From positions 1 through 13,708 of the forward strand of contig JAGAKC010000317.1 of the NCBI GenBank assembly GCA_017848155.1: DNA of 13,708 nt, read 5' to 3'. Positions 5,345-11,819 of the stretch are shown piece after piece. The notes under the pieces were generated by a model, which saw only the letters and a list, made by a program, of their open reading frames with translations, searched no databases and had not been told where the DNA came from. This DNA is from Oscillospiraceae bacterium (GTDB lineage: Bacteria > Bacillota > Clostridia > Oscillospirales > Ruminococcaceae). The translations under genes and the position numbers were made by a program. Every line of letters begins with the position of its first letter. The stretch's first letter is position 1.

Positions 5345-6667
5345 ATGGCTGTTTTCAAGTGCAAGATGTGCAACGGTAATCTGGATGTCAGCTTCGGCAC
5401 ACCCATCATAAAGTGCAGCTACTGCGACACCATGCAGACCGTGCCCGAGATATCCGACGAGAAAAAAGCGAATCTCTACAACCGTGCGAATGTGCTGCGC
5501 TTCGAGAGCGAATTCGACAAGGCAAGCGGTATATACGAGGCGATAGCTGCTGAATTTCCGCTGGAAGCGGAGGCTTACTGGGGTCTGTGCCTCTGCAAGT
5601 ACGGCATAGAATATGTGGATGACCCTCTCACACACCGAAAAGTGCCCACCTGTCACCGCACTTCTTCGGGAAGCATCTTCAACGATGCTATATTCAAGCA
5701 GGCGCTGGAATACGCCGACCCTGCCAGTGCGGAGCTGTATCGCAGGGAGGCTGCGGAGATAGACCGTCTGCAAAGCTCCATCCTCGGTATAGCAGGTGCA
5801 GAAAAGCCGTATGACATCTTCATCTGCTACAAGGAGAGCGACGAAAACGGTCAGCGCACAAAGGACAGCATTTTCGCCGAGGACATCTATGAAGCGCTGA
5901 CACGGGAGGGCTACAGAGTATTTTTTGCGAGAGTTTCGCTGGAGGATAAGCTTGGACAGCAGTATGAGCCGTTCATCTTCGCAGCGCTCAACACCGCCAG
6001 AGTAATGCTTTCGCTCGGCACACGTCCCGAATACTTCAATGCGGTCTGGGTAAAGAATGAGTGGAGCCGCTTCCTGCATCTCATGCGTGAGGACAGCAGC
6101 AAGCTGCTGGTGCCATGCTACTGCGATATGGACCCCTACGACATGCCGCCCGAATTCCGCAATCTCCAGGGACAGGACATGGGCAAGCTGGGCTTCATAC
6201 AGGACCTTGTGCGTGGCATAAAAAAGATACTGCCCAAAAATGCACAGCATTCCTACGGCGGACCCGCAGGCGGATACTACTCGCCTGACGAAGCGGAGAT
6301 ATTCGGGGACAGCTCCTACGGCAATGCATCGGGCTATACAGGCTCTCCTTCCTACAGCACTCCTGAGCAGACAGGCGTATTCGGAGTCGACCTGCCGGGT
6401 CAGAATGCCTCCTATATCCCATCGGGCATTCCGCCCGTCGATACGAGCAAGAGCCGCTACTCAAAGGTTGCTGCGGCGGTGCTGGCGTTCTTTCTCGGAT
6501 TTTTCGGAGCGCACGACTTTTACTGCGGCAATAAAACACGTGGTATCTTAAAGGTCATACTTTGTATCTTCACTTTCACACTTGTACCGAGAGTATGGGG
6601 ATTTATTGATTTCGTGCTGATTCTGGCAGGAAAATACAAGGACGGCGACGGAAAGCCTCTTACATAA
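5345..6667 (+). CDS. zinc-ribbon / TIR / TM2 domain membrane protein
   Basis: The 440-residue protein has four parts. First is an N-terminal zinc ribbon, C6-x2-C9 and C24-x2-C27. Next is a helical segment (about 35-150) with TPR-like patterns (RANVLRFESEFDKASGIYEA). A TIR domain (155-295) opens with KPYDIFICYKESDE and contains WVKNEW, whose E239 sits where TIR NADases carry their catalytic glutamate. After a Gly/Ser/Tyr/Pro-rich linker (about 303-368) comes a C-terminal TM2 domain (368-440) with two hydrophobic helices and the FFGAHDFYCGNKTRG motif. The TIR domain is therefore probably membrane-tethered, though its side is not shown. TIR domains in bacteria either cleave NAD+ (often in antiphage defence) or act as scaffolds; which applies is not shown. 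The gene is monocistronic, with AAGGAG before the ATG, a perfect promoter and its own terminator. No partner defence gene is adjacent. Confidence 0.85.
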   Translation: MAVFKCKMCNGNLDVSFGTPIIKCSYCDTMQTVPEISDEKKANLYNRANVLRFESEFDKASGIYEAIAAEFPLEAEAYWGLCLCKYGIEYVDDPLTHRKVPTCHRTSSGSIFNDAIFKQALEYADPASAELYRREAAEIDRLQSSILGIAGAEKPYDIFICYKESDENGQRTKDSIFAEDIYEALTREGYRVFFARVSLEDKLGQQYEPFIFAALNTARVMLSLGTRPEYFNAVWVKNEWSRFLHLMREDSSKLLVPCYCDMDPYDMPPEFRNLQGQDMGKLGFIQDLVRGIKKILPKNAQHSYGGPAGGYYSPDEAEIFGDSSYGNASGYTGSPSYSTPEQTGVFGVDLPGQNASYIPSGIPPVDTSKSRYSKVAAAVLAFFLGFFGAHDFYCGNKTRGILKVILCIFTFTLVPRVWGFIDFVLILAGKYKDGDGKPLT

Positions 6668-6673
6668 TATCAG

Positions 6674-6704
6674 AGCAGCCTTGTTTGTACAGGGCTGCTT
6701 TTTT
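6674..6704 (+). terminator. intrinsic terminator of the TIR gene
   Basis: AGCAGCCTTGT (6674-6684) pairs with ACAGGGCTGCT (6689-6699) in an 11-bp stem (one G-U) closed by a TTGT tetraloop and followed by six T's (6699-6704). It starts 7 nt after the stop codon and insulates the TIR gene from the operon downstream. Confidence 0.93.
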
Positions 6705-6802
6705 CACACACAGCAGGAATATTGTTACATTTTCAACAAAGAGCGCTCACGAAACTCAAAAAAATTCGGCACGGGTCAAATCGACAATCCTTCAAAACAG
6801 TA

Positions 6803-6831
6803 TTGTATTTAAGGTGTAATTGTGATATAAT
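6803..6831 (+). promoter_or_regulatory. promoter of the PPTase-carrier protein operon
   Basis: TTGTAT (6803-6808) and a perfect TATAAT (6826-6831) are separated by 17 bp, with TG at 6823-6824 giving an extended -10. The transcription start is predicted near 6838, about 37 nt before the first gene. The A/T-rich stretch between the preceding terminator and this promoter (6705-6802) holds no gene that I can support and no clear operator. Confidence 0.8.
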
Positions 6832-6874: not shown

Positions 6875-7537
6875 ATGAACATCCTGATACTGCACGCCGA
6901 CCTGTCGCAGCCATCTGACGAATACAGGAAGTATCTTAAAATGCTGACGCAGGAAAGGCAGGAGCGGATAGCAAGGCAACACGGCAACGCAGCAAGGCTG
7001 TCGCTTATTCTGAAAGGACTGCTGATGCTGCACGGACTAAGTCAGCACACCACGGACATCCGCATAAGCCGCACACAGCACGGCAAGCCTTATCTTTCCG
7101 ACAGGGATGATATCCACTTCTCGCTGTCGCACTCCGACGGAGCTTTCGCATTTGCCTGCGATACATGTCCTGTCGGTATCGACATCCAGAGGATAGAGGG
7201 CGGACAGAAGCCTGCGCTGCGCTTCTTCACCGAAAACGAAAGGCAGGCGGTGCTTGAGTCACCTGACCCTGACAGACGTTTTTTTGAGATATGGACCGCA
7301 AAGGAAGCATATGTAAAGCTGCTGGGTACAGGTCTGCGCACCGCACTGCGGAGCTTTGACGTGCTGGACGGAGGTCTTTCATGCAGCTTTTACACCGAGA
7401 TACGGGGCGGCTATGCCATTACCGCATGCAGCGAAAACGGCACCGCACCGCAGCCTGTTATATCAACACTGACCACAGAGCAGCTGATGAAAAGCATCAG
7501 CTGCCGATATAAAGAAACAAACGGAGGACAACTATGA
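6875..7537 (+). CDS. Sfp-type 4'-phosphopantetheinyl transferase
   Basis: The 220-residue enzyme transfers phosphopantetheine from CoA to the serine of a carrier protein, making it active. Both family signatures are present: VGIDIQRIE (100-108) and WTAKEAYVKLLGTGL (140-154). D103 and E144 are the expected metal ligands. The position two after D103 is Q105 rather than the Glu of Sfp, a substitution that some family members tolerate. LSHSDG at about residues 84-89 matches the N-terminal Sfp block. AGGAG precedes the ATG. It is the first gene of a five-gene operon that also encodes a free carrier protein, its obvious substrate. The stop overlaps the start of the next gene (ATGA), so translation is coupled. 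It is distinct in size and motif from the short AcpS that serves fatty-acid synthesis. Confidence 0.93.
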   Translation: MNILILHADLSQPSDEYRKYLKMLTQERQERIARQHGNAARLSLILKGLLMLHGLSQHTTDIRISRTQHGKPYLSDRDDIHFSLSHSDGAFAFACDTCPVGIDIQRIEGGQKPALRFFTENERQAVLESPDPDRRFFEIWTAKEAYVKLLGTGLRTALRSFDVLDGGLSCSFYTEIRGGYAITACSENGTAPQPVISTLTTEQLMKSISCRYKETNGGQL

Positions 7538-8496
7538 GCGCACTTATCATCGCATCATCCGTTGTAGGCGGACTTGCGCTGCTTGCATGCGGCGGCTACA
7601 CCTACGGCGCATACGCACTGTACAAAAAGACCATCCCAAGACAGACAGAGAGCAGAGTTGACCGCAGCGAGGTCGGCGACGCAAAGAAATGGGAGAGCTA
7701 CATAGAGCTTATCCACGAGAGAAAGGACTGGCTCGGCGCAAGAGAGAGCGAGCACATCACCATAAAGTCCCGTGATGACCTTACACTGCACGCTGACCTG
7801 TACCCTGCCGACAATGACTCCGACACGATAGTCATCTGCTCCCATGGCTACACCAGCACAGGCTGGGACTCCTGCTCCACCATCGGCTCCTACTTCGTGA
7901 AAAAAGGCTTCGACACGCTTATCGTCGACAACCGTGCCCACGGAAAGAGCGAGGGCGATTATGTCGGCTTCGGTATACTGGACAGATACGACCTGCTGGG
8001 CTGGATAAACTACGTGAACGAGCGCTTCGGCGGCAAAAAGAGGATACTCCTCTACGGCGTGTCCATGGGCGGTGCAACCGTACTTATGACAGCAGGCTTT
8101 GACGAGCTGCCCAATGTAAAGGGCATCATCGCAGACTGCGCTTTCACCTCGCCCTATGAGGTATTCGGTCACATAATGCAGCGTGACTACCACATGCCGA
8201 AAAAGATAGTAATGGGCATAAACAGCAAGATAACAAGAAAAAAAGCAGGCTACGGCTTCAGTGATTACTCCACACTTGACGCTGTCAAAAAAACAAATAT
8301 CCCTATCCTGTTCGTACACGGAAGCGAGGACACCTTCGTGCCGACCTACATGAGCAATCAGAATTACGAAGCGTGCAGCTCGCCCAAGGAGCTTTTCATA
8401 GTGGAAAACGCAGGACATGCAGCAAGCTACTATGAAAGCCACGAGCTGTATGAACAGAAGATAGATGAATTTCTGGCAAAGCATGTACACGACTAA
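7534..8496 (+). CDS. membrane-anchored alpha/beta hydrolase
   Basis: The 320-residue protein starts with an uncleaved-looking hydrophobic helix (about 3-28, ALIIASSVVGGLALLACGG), followed by a basic residue pair and an alpha/beta-hydrolase domain. The catalytic triad is visible: S177 in GVSMGGA, D266 in HGSEDTF and H295 in NAGHAAS. The oxyanion-side motif SHGYTS lies at 103-108. This is the DUF/'YqkD-like' class of membrane-tethered esterases. The substrate is not known. In this operon it could hydrolyse an acyl thioester or the final ester or amide product, or act as an acyltransferase. It overlaps the transferase gene by 4 nt, so co-expression is certain. There is no lipobox with a following cysteine in the usual place, although C19 lies inside the helix (LLACGG), so a lipoprotein reading cannot be wholly excluded. 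Confidence 0.88.
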   Translation: MSALIIASSVVGGLALLACGGYTYGAYALYKKTIPRQTESRVDRSEVGDAKKWESYIELIHERKDWLGARESEHITIKSRDDLTLHADLYPADNDSDTIVICSHGYTSTGWDSCSTIGSYFVKKGFDTLIVDNRAHGKSEGDYVGFGILDRYDLLGWINYVNERFGGKKRILLYGVSMGGATVLMTAGFDELPNVKGIIADCAFTSPYEVFGHIMQRDYHMPKKIVMGINSKITRKKAGYGFSDYSTLDAVKKTNIPILFVHGSEDTFVPTYMSNQNYEACSSPKELFIVENAGHAASYYESHELYEQKIDEFLAKHVHD

Positions 8497-8517
8497 CTTT
8501 TCAGAAAGGACATACAT

Positions 8518-9936
8518 ATGAACACGAAAGAATTCATCATCAACGGCGCACCTATGAAGTGCTATCCTCTGTGCGCTGCACAGAGGCTCCACCACTACAC
8601 CATCAGGTACTGCCCCCATCAGGTGCTGTGCATAGGTACAGGTCTTTATATCCAGATGGGAGTTGACTTTGACGTGCTGCGTCAGTCCATCTACGAAGCT
8701 TGCAACCGCTTTGATTCGATGCGTCTGCGCTTCATCCAGGACGAGGACGGCTCGGTATATCAGTATATAGTCCCCTTTGAGGAGCGTGAGATACCTGTCG
8801 TTGACTTCTCCTACTGGAAGGAAGAGGACGCTCACAGGGAAATGGAGAAATGGACAGCAGAGCCATTCCCCAGATACAACTCCCCCATGAACAAGATAGT
8901 GATGATAAAGCTCCCAAACGGCTATAACGGCGTTTATCTCAAGGTCGACCACATGACGATGGACTCAAGCTCCATCATTGCGTTTGACCGTGACGTACTG
9001 GAGATATACTGCAACAAGATGTACGGCAGAGAAATGCCGAAGCCGATGATGTCCTACATAAAGCAGCTTGAAAAGGACCTTGCCTATGAGGAAGGCTCCG
9101 CTGCGCAGAAGAAGGACGAGGAATTCTGGATGAACGAGATATCCGCAAGCGAGCCGATGTACACCGACTTCACAGGCATGGGCAGACTTCTCACCCAGCG
9201 CAGGGAAAACAACAACCCCGACCAGAGAAGCGCAATGGTAGTATCAAAGTCCATCGCTGCAGGTATATCGGTATACCACCTCGAAAAAGAGCCGTCTGAC
9301 AGGCTGATGCAGTTCTGCGAGGACAACCAGATACCTATGGTATGTCTGCTGCTGATGGGACTCAGAACTGTTCTTTCAAAGTTCAACGACAATGAAAAGG
9401 ACGTTTCGATAAAGAGCGTTGTGGCACGCCGCGGAACTCTGCTGGAAAAGCGTTCGGGCGGAAGCAGGATGCACTTCTTCCCTCTGCGCACCATCATCGA
9501 ACCCGAAACCACATTCATTGACGCAATAAAGATAATTCAGGCAGAGCAGAACAAGCTGTTCCGTCACGCAAACTATGACCCCATCCTGCATACCATGAAC
9601 CGCTCAAAGTACTGGAAGCTGCAGCCCGGTGCAAGCTACGAGAGCATGGCGCTCACATATCAGCCGCTGACGCTGAAGCAGCAGCAGTCCGAAGAGGATA
9701 TCCCCGATATTCCCTACAAGAGCCTCTGGTACACGAACGGCGTTGCAGGTCAGCCGCTGTATCTGACAGTTATGCACCGTGTAGAGGACGGCGGACTCAA
9801 CTTCAATTTTGAATACAGATACGATGTCGTGTCCGAGCACGAGATGGAATATCTCTACTATTACCTCTGCCGAGTGCTTTTCAGAGGTATCGAGGACAAG
9901 AACAGGACTGTAGGCGAGATACTGGATATAATCTGA
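8518..9936 (+). CDS. stand-alone condensation-domain-like acyltransferase
   Basis: The 472-residue protein has the size and pattern of an NRPS condensation domain with nothing attached. YPLCAAQRLHHY (19-30) resembles the C1 motif. The active-site region reads KVDHMTMDSSS (142-152), matching the HHxxxDG motif with the first His replaced by D144, the catalytic second His kept (H145), D149 kept and the Gly replaced by S150. A C-terminal block (YRYDVVSEHEMEYLYYYLCRVL) matches the domain's end helix. Such proteins join an acyl or peptidyl group held on a carrier protein to an amine or alcohol. Here the donor would be the acyl carrier encoded next; the acceptor is unknown. It lies 21 bp after the hydrolase gene with AGAAAGGA before the ATG. 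It could also be an epimerisation-like or inactive relative, but retention of H145 argues for catalysis. Confidence 0.85.
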   Translation: MNTKEFIINGAPMKCYPLCAAQRLHHYTIRYCPHQVLCIGTGLYIQMGVDFDVLRQSIYEACNRFDSMRLRFIQDEDGSVYQYIVPFEEREIPVVDFSYWKEEDAHREMEKWTAEPFPRYNSPMNKIVMIKLPNGYNGVYLKVDHMTMDSSSIIAFDRDVLEIYCNKMYGREMPKPMMSYIKQLEKDLAYEEGSAAQKKDEEFWMNEISASEPMYTDFTGMGRLLTQRRENNNPDQRSAMVVSKSIAAGISVYHLEKEPSDRLMQFCEDNQIPMVCLLLMGLRTVLSKFNDNEKDVSIKSVVARRGTLLEKRSGGSRMHFFPLRTIIEPETTFIDAIKIIQAEQNKLFRHANYDPILHTMNRSKYWKLQPGASYESMALTYQPLTLKQQQSEEDIPDIPYKSLWYTNGVAGQPLYLTVMHRVEDGGLNFNFEYRYDVVSEHEMEYLYYYLCRVLFRGIEDKNRTVGEILDII

Positions 9937-9970
9937 TAACAATCAATTACATTTTACGGAGGAAAAAACA

Positions 9971-10198
9971 ATGTTTGAACAGATCAAGGAATTCATCTGC
10001 AACTACGTCGAGGTAGACGCTGACGCCATCACATCCGAATCCAGATTCATCGAGGATCTCGGCTTCAACTCCTACGATTTCATGAGCATGCTGGGAGAGA
10101 TAGAGCAGGAGCTGGACGTTCAGGTAAACGAGGACGATATCATGAAGCTGGCGACCGTAGGCGATGCGGTAAAGTACTTTGAAACACTGAAAAAGTAA
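9971..10198 (+). CDS. free acyl/peptidyl carrier protein
   Basis: The 75-residue acidic protein is a single carrier domain. The attachment serine is S34 in DLGFNSYDFMSML (29-41), at the start of helix II; the canonical Asp before it is Asn (N33) here, a mild variation. The four-helix pattern and length match ACP/DltC. GGAGG lies 7 nt before the ATG, the best ribosome binding site of the operon, consistent with a carrier needed in excess. It lies between the condensation-like gene and the ligase gene, so the ligase should load it and the condensation-like protein should unload it after activation by the operon's phosphopantetheinyl transferase. Confidence 0.93.
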   Translation: MFEQIKEFICNYVEVDADAITSESRFIEDLGFNSYDFMSMLGEIEQELDVQVNEDDIMKLATVGDAVKYFETLKK

Positions 10199-10209
10199 AG
10201 GAGCATAAC

Positions 10210-11754
10210 ATGAACAAAGCCCTTAACAGAACTCTTCAGGACCTTGTAAGACTTGCCGCCGAGGAATACGGCAGCAAGACCTTCATCAGAGAAAAGGCAG
10301 GCAAGGATATAAGCGAAAGGTCCTTTGCCGATCTGTACTCCGACAGCAGAAGGATAGCTTCATACATTGCGGAGAAATTCGGCGGCGAGCGTATCCATGC
10401 GGCTGTTATCGGTCCCACGAGCTACGCATATCTTGCGGCATACTTCGGCACAGTTATCAATGGCTGTGTAACGGTTCCTCTGGACGCACAGCTTGCTTGC
10501 GAGGACATCTGCGAGCTTATGACAAGGGCAGATGTATCGGCATTCTTCTACGACAAGCGCTACGAGCCTATGATAGAAGCTGTCAGGGCAGCGTGCCCCG
10601 AAATAAAGGCATTCATCTGCCTGCAGGAATGTGAAGCCTGCGATACGACGCTCGGCGATATCACAGCAAAATACCCCGAAGCAGAGCTTAAGCAGCTGGA
10701 TGGCAGCATGCTCGCTTCCATCGTCTACACATCGGGTACGACAGGAAAGGCTAAGGGCGTTATGCTGGCTCACGGAAACCTCATCGACAACGTGAACTGT
10801 CAGGACAACGAAAGCTCACCCGAGGACGTGCTGCTGACAGTGCTCCCTATACATCATGTATACTGCTTCACCTGCGATATACTGCTTTCGCTGAGATACG
10901 GTGCTACCGTATGCGTCAACGACTCCATGATGAGAATAACGATGAACCTGAAGCTGTTCCAGCCTACGATAATCCTGCTGGTACCTATGATCGCCGAGAC
11001 CATCTACAAGCAGATAATGGGTGCGGCAAAGGCAAAGCAGCTGCCCCCTGCGGCTGTTGCGAGGTCCGTTTTCGGAGAAAATCTCAAGGGCATATTCAGC
11101 GGCGGTGCATATCTCGCACCTGAGCTTGTAAACGGCTATCTGGAGCTTGGCATACCGATCGCACAGGGCTACGGAATGACCGAGTGCTCTCCCAGGATCT
11201 CCACAGCAAGCTTTGATGACATCAGTACAAAGGGCGATGTGGGCAAGATCGTAAACGGCTGCGATGTAAAGATCGTAGACGGCGAGATAGTTGTACACAG
11301 TGGCTCTGTAATGCAGGGCTACTACAAGTACCCCGAGGCTACCGCGGAGGCGCTTGACAGCGATGGCTGGCTTCACACAGGCGACCTTGGCTATGTGGGC
11401 GACGACAGACGCCTGTTCATCACAGGAAGAAAGAAGAACCTCATTATCCTCAGCAACGGAGAGAATGTATCTCCCGAGGAGCTTGAAAACAAATTCGCCG
11501 CTGTTGACCTTGCAGCCGAAGTGCTGGTATACGCAGAGGACGGTGTTATCACTGCCGAGGTATTCCCCAACGCAGACGAGTGCTCCGACCTTGCGGAAGC
11601 AGGTGCAAAGCTGAACGAGATCATCAAGGAGATCAACCTCACCCTGCCCTCCTCAAAGACCATCCGCAGGCTTCGTGTCCGTGACAGAGAGTTCGACAAG
11701 ACTCCCTCCAGAAAGATAAAGCGTGCACAGGAGCACAAGGGCAATATCGTGTAA
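10210..11754 (+). CDS. acyl-AMP ligase (acyl-CoA synthetase / ACP ligase family)
   Basis: The 514-residue enzyme belongs to the adenylate-forming superfamily: it activates a carboxylic acid with ATP and passes it to a thiol. Motifs in order are the P-loop YTSGTTGKAKG (173-183), YGMTE (321-325), HTGDLG (389-394), the hinge GRKKNLIILSNGENVSPEELE and, in the small C-terminal domain, TPSRKIKR with the catalytic Lys at K502. YGMTE rather than YGPTE favours a fatty, aromatic or other carboxylic acid over an amino acid, but specificity cannot be read with certainty. It begins 11 nt after the carrier-protein gene with AAAGGAG overlapping that gene's end, so the carrier is the likely acceptor rather than CoA. 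It is the last gene before the operon terminator. It is not DltA by context, since no DltB or DltD is present. Confidence 0.92.
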   Translation: MNKALNRTLQDLVRLAAEEYGSKTFIREKAGKDISERSFADLYSDSRRIASYIAEKFGGERIHAAVIGPTSYAYLAAYFGTVINGCVTVPLDAQLACEDICELMTRADVSAFFYDKRYEPMIEAVRAACPEIKAFICLQECEACDTTLGDITAKYPEAELKQLDGSMLASIVYTSGTTGKAKGVMLAHGNLIDNVNCQDNESSPEDVLLTVLPIHHVYCFTCDILLSLRYGATVCVNDSMMRITMNLKLFQPTIILLVPMIAETIYKQIMGAAKAKQLPPAAVARSVFGENLKGIFSGGAYLAPELVNGYLELGIPIAQGYGMTECSPRISTASFDDISTKGDVGKIVNGCDVKIVDGEIVVHSGSVMQGYYKYPEATAEALDSDGWLHTGDLGYVGDDRRLFITGRKKNLIILSNGENVSPEELENKFAAVDLAAEVLVYAEDGVITAEVFPNADECSDLAEAGAKLNEIIKEINLTLPSSKTIRRLRVRDREFDKTPSRKIKRAQEHKGNIV

Positions 11755-11773
11755 TTACTACCATAAACAAACC

Positions 11774-11800
11774 GACCCGACAGATCGATTCTGTCGGGTC
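11774..11800. terminator. shared bidirectional terminator hairpin
   Basis: GACCCGACAG (11774-11783) and CTGTCGGGTC (11791-11800) form a 10-bp GC-rich stem, extendable by one A-T pair, with a 5-nt loop. It lies 17 nt after the ligase stop and 20 nt beyond the end of the convergent antiporter gene. The flanks are moderately T-rich on both strands (ATTGTATTTA on plus; GGTTTGTTTATGG on minus), so it can serve both units. Confidence 0.8.
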
Positions 11801-11819
11801 ATTGTATTTAAGTCGTATA

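Follow-up and report, generated by a model that had tools for sequence, protein, structure and literature searches.

We have analyzed a window of 13,708 nt (the whole stretch of DNA under study, contig JAGAKC010000317.1 of assembly GCA_017848155.1 from an Oscillospiraceae bacterium) that carries, at positions 6875..11754, five genes in the order PPTase (phosphopantetheinyl transferase), HYD (alpha/beta hydrolase), C (condensation enzyme), T (carrier protein) and A (acyl-AMP ligase). Very probably this is a C-T-A operon for fatty-acid amides (FAAs), of a subtype that bears HYD, in which fatty acids are joined to small amines. The operon is real, intact and of a known pathway type; the variant consists in a fixed membrane hydrolase, accompanied in many relatives, not in the window, by a regulator, an operator and the lipid-binding protein SCP2. 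Our analysis itself yields homology, motifs, gene order and co-inheritance, while the chemistry of A, T and C and the rescue of growth by amines come from relatives; from these we infer the substrates in the window's organism, the product, the acceptor, the role of HYD and the purpose.

The condensation enzyme and the C-T-A arrangement

The best match of C in the PDB is entry 12KH, the condensation enzyme OaaC of Coprococcus eutactus, with an E-value of 7.4e-111 over C residues 11-471, and the next entry follows at 5.7e-6. Judged by its sequence, C is homologous to OaaC and a member of the FAA synthase family. In C. eutactus, OaaA, OaaACP and OaaC, a free ligase, a free carrier and C, join fatty acids to small amines; the pathway was reconstituted, with aminovalerate and gamma-aminobutyric acid as amines, and the OaaC homodimer is reported to be opened by the holo form of the acyl carrier protein (ACP) (PMC13142362). 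DHxxxDS is described there as the noncanonical condensation motif of FAA enzymes, and Gln214-His224 of OaaC as part of an insertion (PMC13142362). The window C has DHMTMDS at residues 144-150 (D144-H145-MTM-D149-S150), in agreement with the pattern (D/H)HxxxDS, and aligns to Gln214-His224 without a gap; DHxxxDS is present in 106 of the 114 C proteins of HYD loci. In a class sample of 391 genomes, 20 stand-alone C proteins, the window's included, score at least 339 bits, and the remaining matches reach at most 132 bits and lie mostly in longer frames. The stand-alone C of the window falls with OaaC in the FAA clade of a tree that contained no canonical C domains of nonribosomal peptide synthetases (NRPS), its separation from these resting on the scores.

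A "CTA operon" of three genes, with T between C and A, was reported after a search of 7,781 isolate genomes at 70% identity and 80% protein coverage; the 36 species that have it all belong to the Lachnospiraceae (PMC13060934). In Blautia wexlerae it was linked to acyl-amine production, and added amines rescued this organism from inhibition by fatty acids (PMC13060934). The window likewise has T between C and A in one operon, T being a free carrier with a modifiable serine and A a stand-alone acyl-AMP ligase with the core motifs YTSGTTG, YGMTE, TGD and PSRK. This arrangement, together with the OaaC-like C, indicates that the pathway type is already known, and the operon looks like an HYD-bearing variant of it. 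A previous sequence-only reading of the same DNA had taken the operon for an unknown kind of system, a claim staked beforehand on there being no characterized counterpart and one that fails with the match to OaaC and the published gene arrangement. Its outline of a set sufficient in itself for acid activation, carrier loading and acyl transfer to an acceptor holds in view of the OaaC homology and the C-T-A order, and the same two observations lend good support to the N-acyl small molecule it considered as a likely product. No support was found for its further suggestions of an O-acyl product or a modified envelope component, and YGMTE is no specific hint of a fatty or an aromatic substrate, as an alignment revealed identical letters in 4-coumarate-CoA ligase.

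With the OAA pathway the window shares a free-standing ligase, carrier and C, the DHxxxDS motif, the gap-free Gln214-His224 stretch and homology over nearly the full length of C, but it adds HYD and the PPTase, and its C is about 39% identical to OaaC. The OAA pathway is described as three proteins (PMC13142362), and the C clade of OaaC was found to be without HYD, the locus of OaaC itself lying outside our sample. The CTA operon of B. wexlerae and other Lachnospiraceae has the same C, T and A proteins with T in the middle, but it comprises three genes (PMC13060934), whereas the window and its relatives carry HYD upstream, a comparison made by description, without the Blautia C sequences. Many relatives, not the window, depart further from the three-gene operon by TetR, the operator and SCP2. 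Two other assignments were discarded. As the sequence-only reading had held, this is not a dlt operon, for no MBOAT (DltB) model was found among the seven proteins scanned, the five of the operon and both neighbors; nor is it a modular NRPS, since the domains reside on separate open reading frames and the genome bin, about 77% complete, holds a single Condensation match.

The five reading frames are intact, lie on the + strand where they had originally been placed, and are spaced by -4, 21, 34 and 11 bp in order, so that the description as a compact operon with gaps of at most 34 bp was confirmed by frames, Pfam matches and motifs (Table 1). For each protein the best Pfam model scores above its cut-off, and the catalytic residues of all five appear intact on inspection. 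Every frame is preceded by a Shine-Dalgarno-like sequence, and the GC content is 0.516 in the operon and 0.507 in the rest of the window.

Table 1. Genes and predicted signals of the operon (positions in the window).
Feature	Position	Strand	Evidence
PPTase, Sfp-type 4'-phosphopantetheinyl transferase, 220 aa	6875..7537	+	Pfam ACPS 64.2 bits, AASDHPPT_N 29.8 bits; WTAKEA at residue 140
HYD, membrane-anchored esterase-like alpha/beta hydrolase, 320 aa	7534..8496	+	several Pfam alpha/beta-hydrolase models
C, stand-alone FAA-type condensation enzyme, 472 aa	8518..9936	+	Pfam Condensation 124.7 bits; PDB 12KH/OaaC match; DHMTMDS
T, free acyl carrier protein, 75 aa	9971..10198	+	Pfam PP-binding 46.5 bits; Ser34 in LGFNS
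A, acyl-AMP ligase / acyl-ACP synthetase, 514 aa	10210..11754	+	Pfam AMP-binding 199.7 bits; core motifs
Terminator-like hairpin and T-run, 3' of the TIR-TM2 gene	6672..6701	+	fold of 6668-6716, -20.7 kcal/mol; absent from consensus scan
Probable extended -10 element TGATATAAT	6823..6831	+	sequence reading; weak -35
Terminator-like hairpin between the convergent A and Na+/H+ antiporter genes	11774..11800	+	scan; fold of 11765-11812, -23.0 kcal/mol

The predicted hairpins and the extended -10 element would frame the operon as a unit, and the upstream hairpin would separate it from the preceding TIR gene. The consensus promoter scan did not list the -10 element and gave only weak 9-of-12 sites nearby. 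Directly upstream of the operon, at 5345-6664, the window encodes a protein with TIR and TM2 domains that has its own terminator-like hairpin; its first 300 residues find a match of 65% identity in two of four congeners, on contigs other than that of obg.

Linkage, anchor and fold of the hydrolase

HYD belongs to the system and is fixed in the window's clade. In a named collection, the best 80 of 302 relatives at 67-91% identity, HYD precedes C in all 76 that have at least 1 kb of upstream sequence. Where there is room downstream, 78 of 79 named loci have T after C and 73 of 74 have A, with one locus (L133) lacking both. The consistent presence of HYD, T and A beside C goes beyond chance, and a fortuitous neighborhood of reading frames was rejected on account of this conserved order. 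The proposal that gene order is conserved among Oscillospiraceae relatives thus stood for HYD-C-T-A; it did not stand for the PPTase, which lies upstream in 4 of 81 loci (one of them the window's) and downstream in 4 of 81. The PPTase, taken at first for a core member, is a variable part of the gene set, and it is the hydrolase instead that is fixed in the clade.

HYD orthologs of at least 335 bits were found in 26 of 297 family genomes, of which 25 have it next to C and one (G027) next to a C that is broken, with the next match at 278 bits. At the latter locus (L069, G027:C68) the C gene is in fragments and HYD is kept. Of 19 loci in the class sample, 11 have HYD next to C, these being of the families coded f21, f31, f44 and f55, and seven of the eight loci without HYD have at least 3 kb of upstream sequence. 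For a maximum-likelihood tree we took C proteins of 380-560 aa and more than 200 bits, 138 in number and 139 with OaaC; dropping identical rows and three in four of L076-L150 left 76. On this tree HYD linkage requires 2 changes, whereas shuffles need 20.1 on average and none of 500 came down as far, a contrast inflated by near-copies, and as the tree is midpoint-rooted with some long branches, the direction of change is unsure. OaaC sits in a ten-member clade without HYD; none was seen in the eight of its rows whose upstream sequence reaches 1.9 kb or more. HYD-less rows with less than 1 kb upstream are L062 (70 bp), L067 (292 bp) and L153 (680 bp).

The predicted catalytic triad of HYD is S177/D266/H295; the first GxSxG, starting at residue 137, was rejected as the site of the nucleophile in favor of S177. 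Topology was scored on 98 of 115 HYD proteins (13 lacked the landmark and 4 had a weak core), and HYD is anchored in the membrane, its catalytic domain probably on the cytosolic side. The HYD model was built from 57 sequences. Both by sequence and by fold the nearest match is an esterase. Identity to the Pf2001 esterase and monoglyceride lipases is about 16-22%, and HYD alone has an N-terminal membrane anchor and the linkage to C-T-A. The occurrence of HYD beside C-T-A may already be in print (Chang et al. 2021).

Accessory genes, operator and distribution

A divergent TetR regulator is present in 39 of 81 loci (65 with at least 2.2 kb upstream) and an SCP2 lipid-binding protein 3' of A in 35 of 81 (60 with at least 3.8 kb downstream). 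These genes emerged from clustering of neighbors and were identified by Pfam from a single representative of each, on which the profiles behind the counts were built. In genome G157, C and T are present and the ligase was not found within 8 kb. A separate contig of the same genome (L177, G157:C33, 6953-8535) carries an HYD homolog that overlaps a PPTase gene by one base.

Upstream of HYD, relatives have a palindrome, TTCGACCG-N-CGGTCGAA, which is doubled in some cases (e.g. G199:C41:15798-15855). Its core, at two mismatches or fewer, occurs in 36 of 41 distinct regions of TetR loci versus 3.4% in shuffles that preserved base composition only, and in 19 of 52 distinct regions where TetR was not found versus 3.3%. 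A search of 26 whole genomes for exact YGACCGNCGGTCGAA gave 16 matches in 12 genomes, corresponding to 14 distinct sites of which two were read on both strands, and every match is upstream of HYD at a distance of no more than about 0.6 kb. In these 26 genomes neither an exact site outside the HYD-C-T-A locus nor a match to the reversed control pattern was found, and 14 of them, the window's included, have no exact match. As the exact operator is confined to this locus, the regulator looks dedicated to it where present, and TetR would be the protein that binds the operator (TTCGACCGNCGGTCGAA).

The window's genome has one SCP2 protein, located elsewhere than the operon. It also holds a second carrier-protein cluster (L176, G000:C16, 537-6389) with an ACP, a PlsC-like acyltransferase, FabG- and FabZ-like proteins, a protein of 750 aa whose two halves are each ketosynthase-like, and a second Sfp-type PPTase. 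This cluster resembles an aryl-polyene or type II polyketide synthase set, the names other than PPTase and ACP having been read from the sequence.

Nearly all of the best 80 of 302 relatives are titled Oscillospiraceae, Ruminococcus, Ruminiclostridium or Clostridia metagenome-assembled genomes, one is titled Alistipes, and 31 titles name deer, goat, sheep or "Lapin" (French, rabbit). Some C match, NRPS-like ones included, was found in 51 of 297 family-sample genomes, none at E 1e-50 in 397 other genomes of a phylum sample (some of the same class), and none in plasmid and phage collections at the E-limits used. Loci L032-L055, L071-L150 and L151-L152 partly cover the same genomes. None of four sampled congeners has a C match, and all four have other genes beside the obg-rpmA-prp-rplU block that adjoins the operon in the window; the operon is thus patchy. 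Obg of the window contig is 78-81% identical to that of the four congeners, so that the contig fits its genome bin.

Proposed route, competing explanations and meaning

In the route that we propose, the PPTase would arm Ser34 of T with phosphopantetheine, A would use ATP to activate a fatty acid of medium or long chain and load it onto T, and C, with acyl-T as its donor, would acylate a small amine that diffuses freely and so release an N-acyl amide. HYD may supply the acid by cleaving acyl esters such as monoacylglycerol or lysolipid at the membrane, the likeliest role that we can name for it, put forward tentatively and at somewhat less than an even chance. The hydrolase might instead be a thioesterase with an editing function, freeing T of wrong loads, or an amide hydrolase by which the product is recycled. 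We consider such a function rather doubtful, as the closest relative in sequence and fold is an esterase, C clades without HYD exist, that of OaaC among them, and editing thioesterases are rarely anchored in membranes. Alternatively, the acceptor could be an alcohol, a peptide or an envelope component and the product other than a small N-acyl amide. Enzymes of the condensation fold are able to form esters, but C sits in the OaaC family and has DHxxxDS, and no acceptor carrier, MBOAT or envelope gene is found among the five operon proteins, so that this is improbable.

Rumen ruminococci are sensitive to unsaturated fatty acids, and the recurrent SCP2 and the esterase-like membrane HYD fit the handling of lipids. 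The most likely purpose, to which we give about an even chance, is that toxic free fatty acids are disposed of by conversion to harmless amides, with a possible further effect of these on the host. A signal or antagonist directed toward microbes or the host, rather than detoxification, is a possibility to be taken seriously, if with reserve: FAAs of gut Clostridia act on host G-protein-coupled receptors (PMC13142362, PMC13060934), and the patchy distribution would suit such a function, but both the rescue of Blautia by amines under fatty-acid stress (PMC13060934) and the signs of lipid handling speak for detoxification. Beyond these readings lies a regulated system of capture and conjugation in herbivore-gut Ruminococcaceae, in which the esterase would free acyl chains, SCP2 may carry them, C-T-A would amidate them and a TetR that senses a fatty acid or acyl thioester would exert control through the operator; taken as a whole we regard it as speculative and rather unlikely.

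Several observations weigh against an FAA operon with HYD as the supplier of the acid. With C as distant from OaaC as it is, it could use another donor and acceptor. FAA-type C proteins are not perfectly set apart from the others: three C-like proteins of family genome G079 score in between, at 118-177 bits. These three (L067, L068, L070), distant stand-alone condensation proteins of 24-27% identity, carry DL or DI where the motif has DS. Reports of CTA operons come solely from Lachnospiraceae, from human-gut isolates screened at a cut-off of 70% identity (PMC13060934), and among the matches listed in the literature searched we found no FAA product from any member of the Ruminococcaceae. Judged by homology, the substrate of HYD is left unfixed; a thioesterase scores as high as monoglyceride lipases in the fold comparison, and a more distant related hydrolase is found in 90 further genomes of the 297. 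Finally, unlike many relatives, the window operon has no adjacent TetR, operator or SCP2. The same literature search found, among the matches listed, no Ruminococcaceae CTA members and no FAA clusters from the rumen or Ruminococcus, and on fatty-acid toxicity it gave nothing on point, only general rumen studies.

If the assignment as an HYD-bearing C-T-A operon is true, FAA biosynthesis extends from the Lachnospiraceae of the human gut to the Ruminococcaceae of herbivores, with a hydrolase tied to the pathway and, in many relatives, also a lipid-binding protein and a dedicated regulator. Regulator and operator would offer a direct route to the question of why gut bacteria make these amides, as the inducer should tell. 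Should the system indeed be one of capture and conjugation, amide synthesis would be a defense against lipid stress first and a host signal second.

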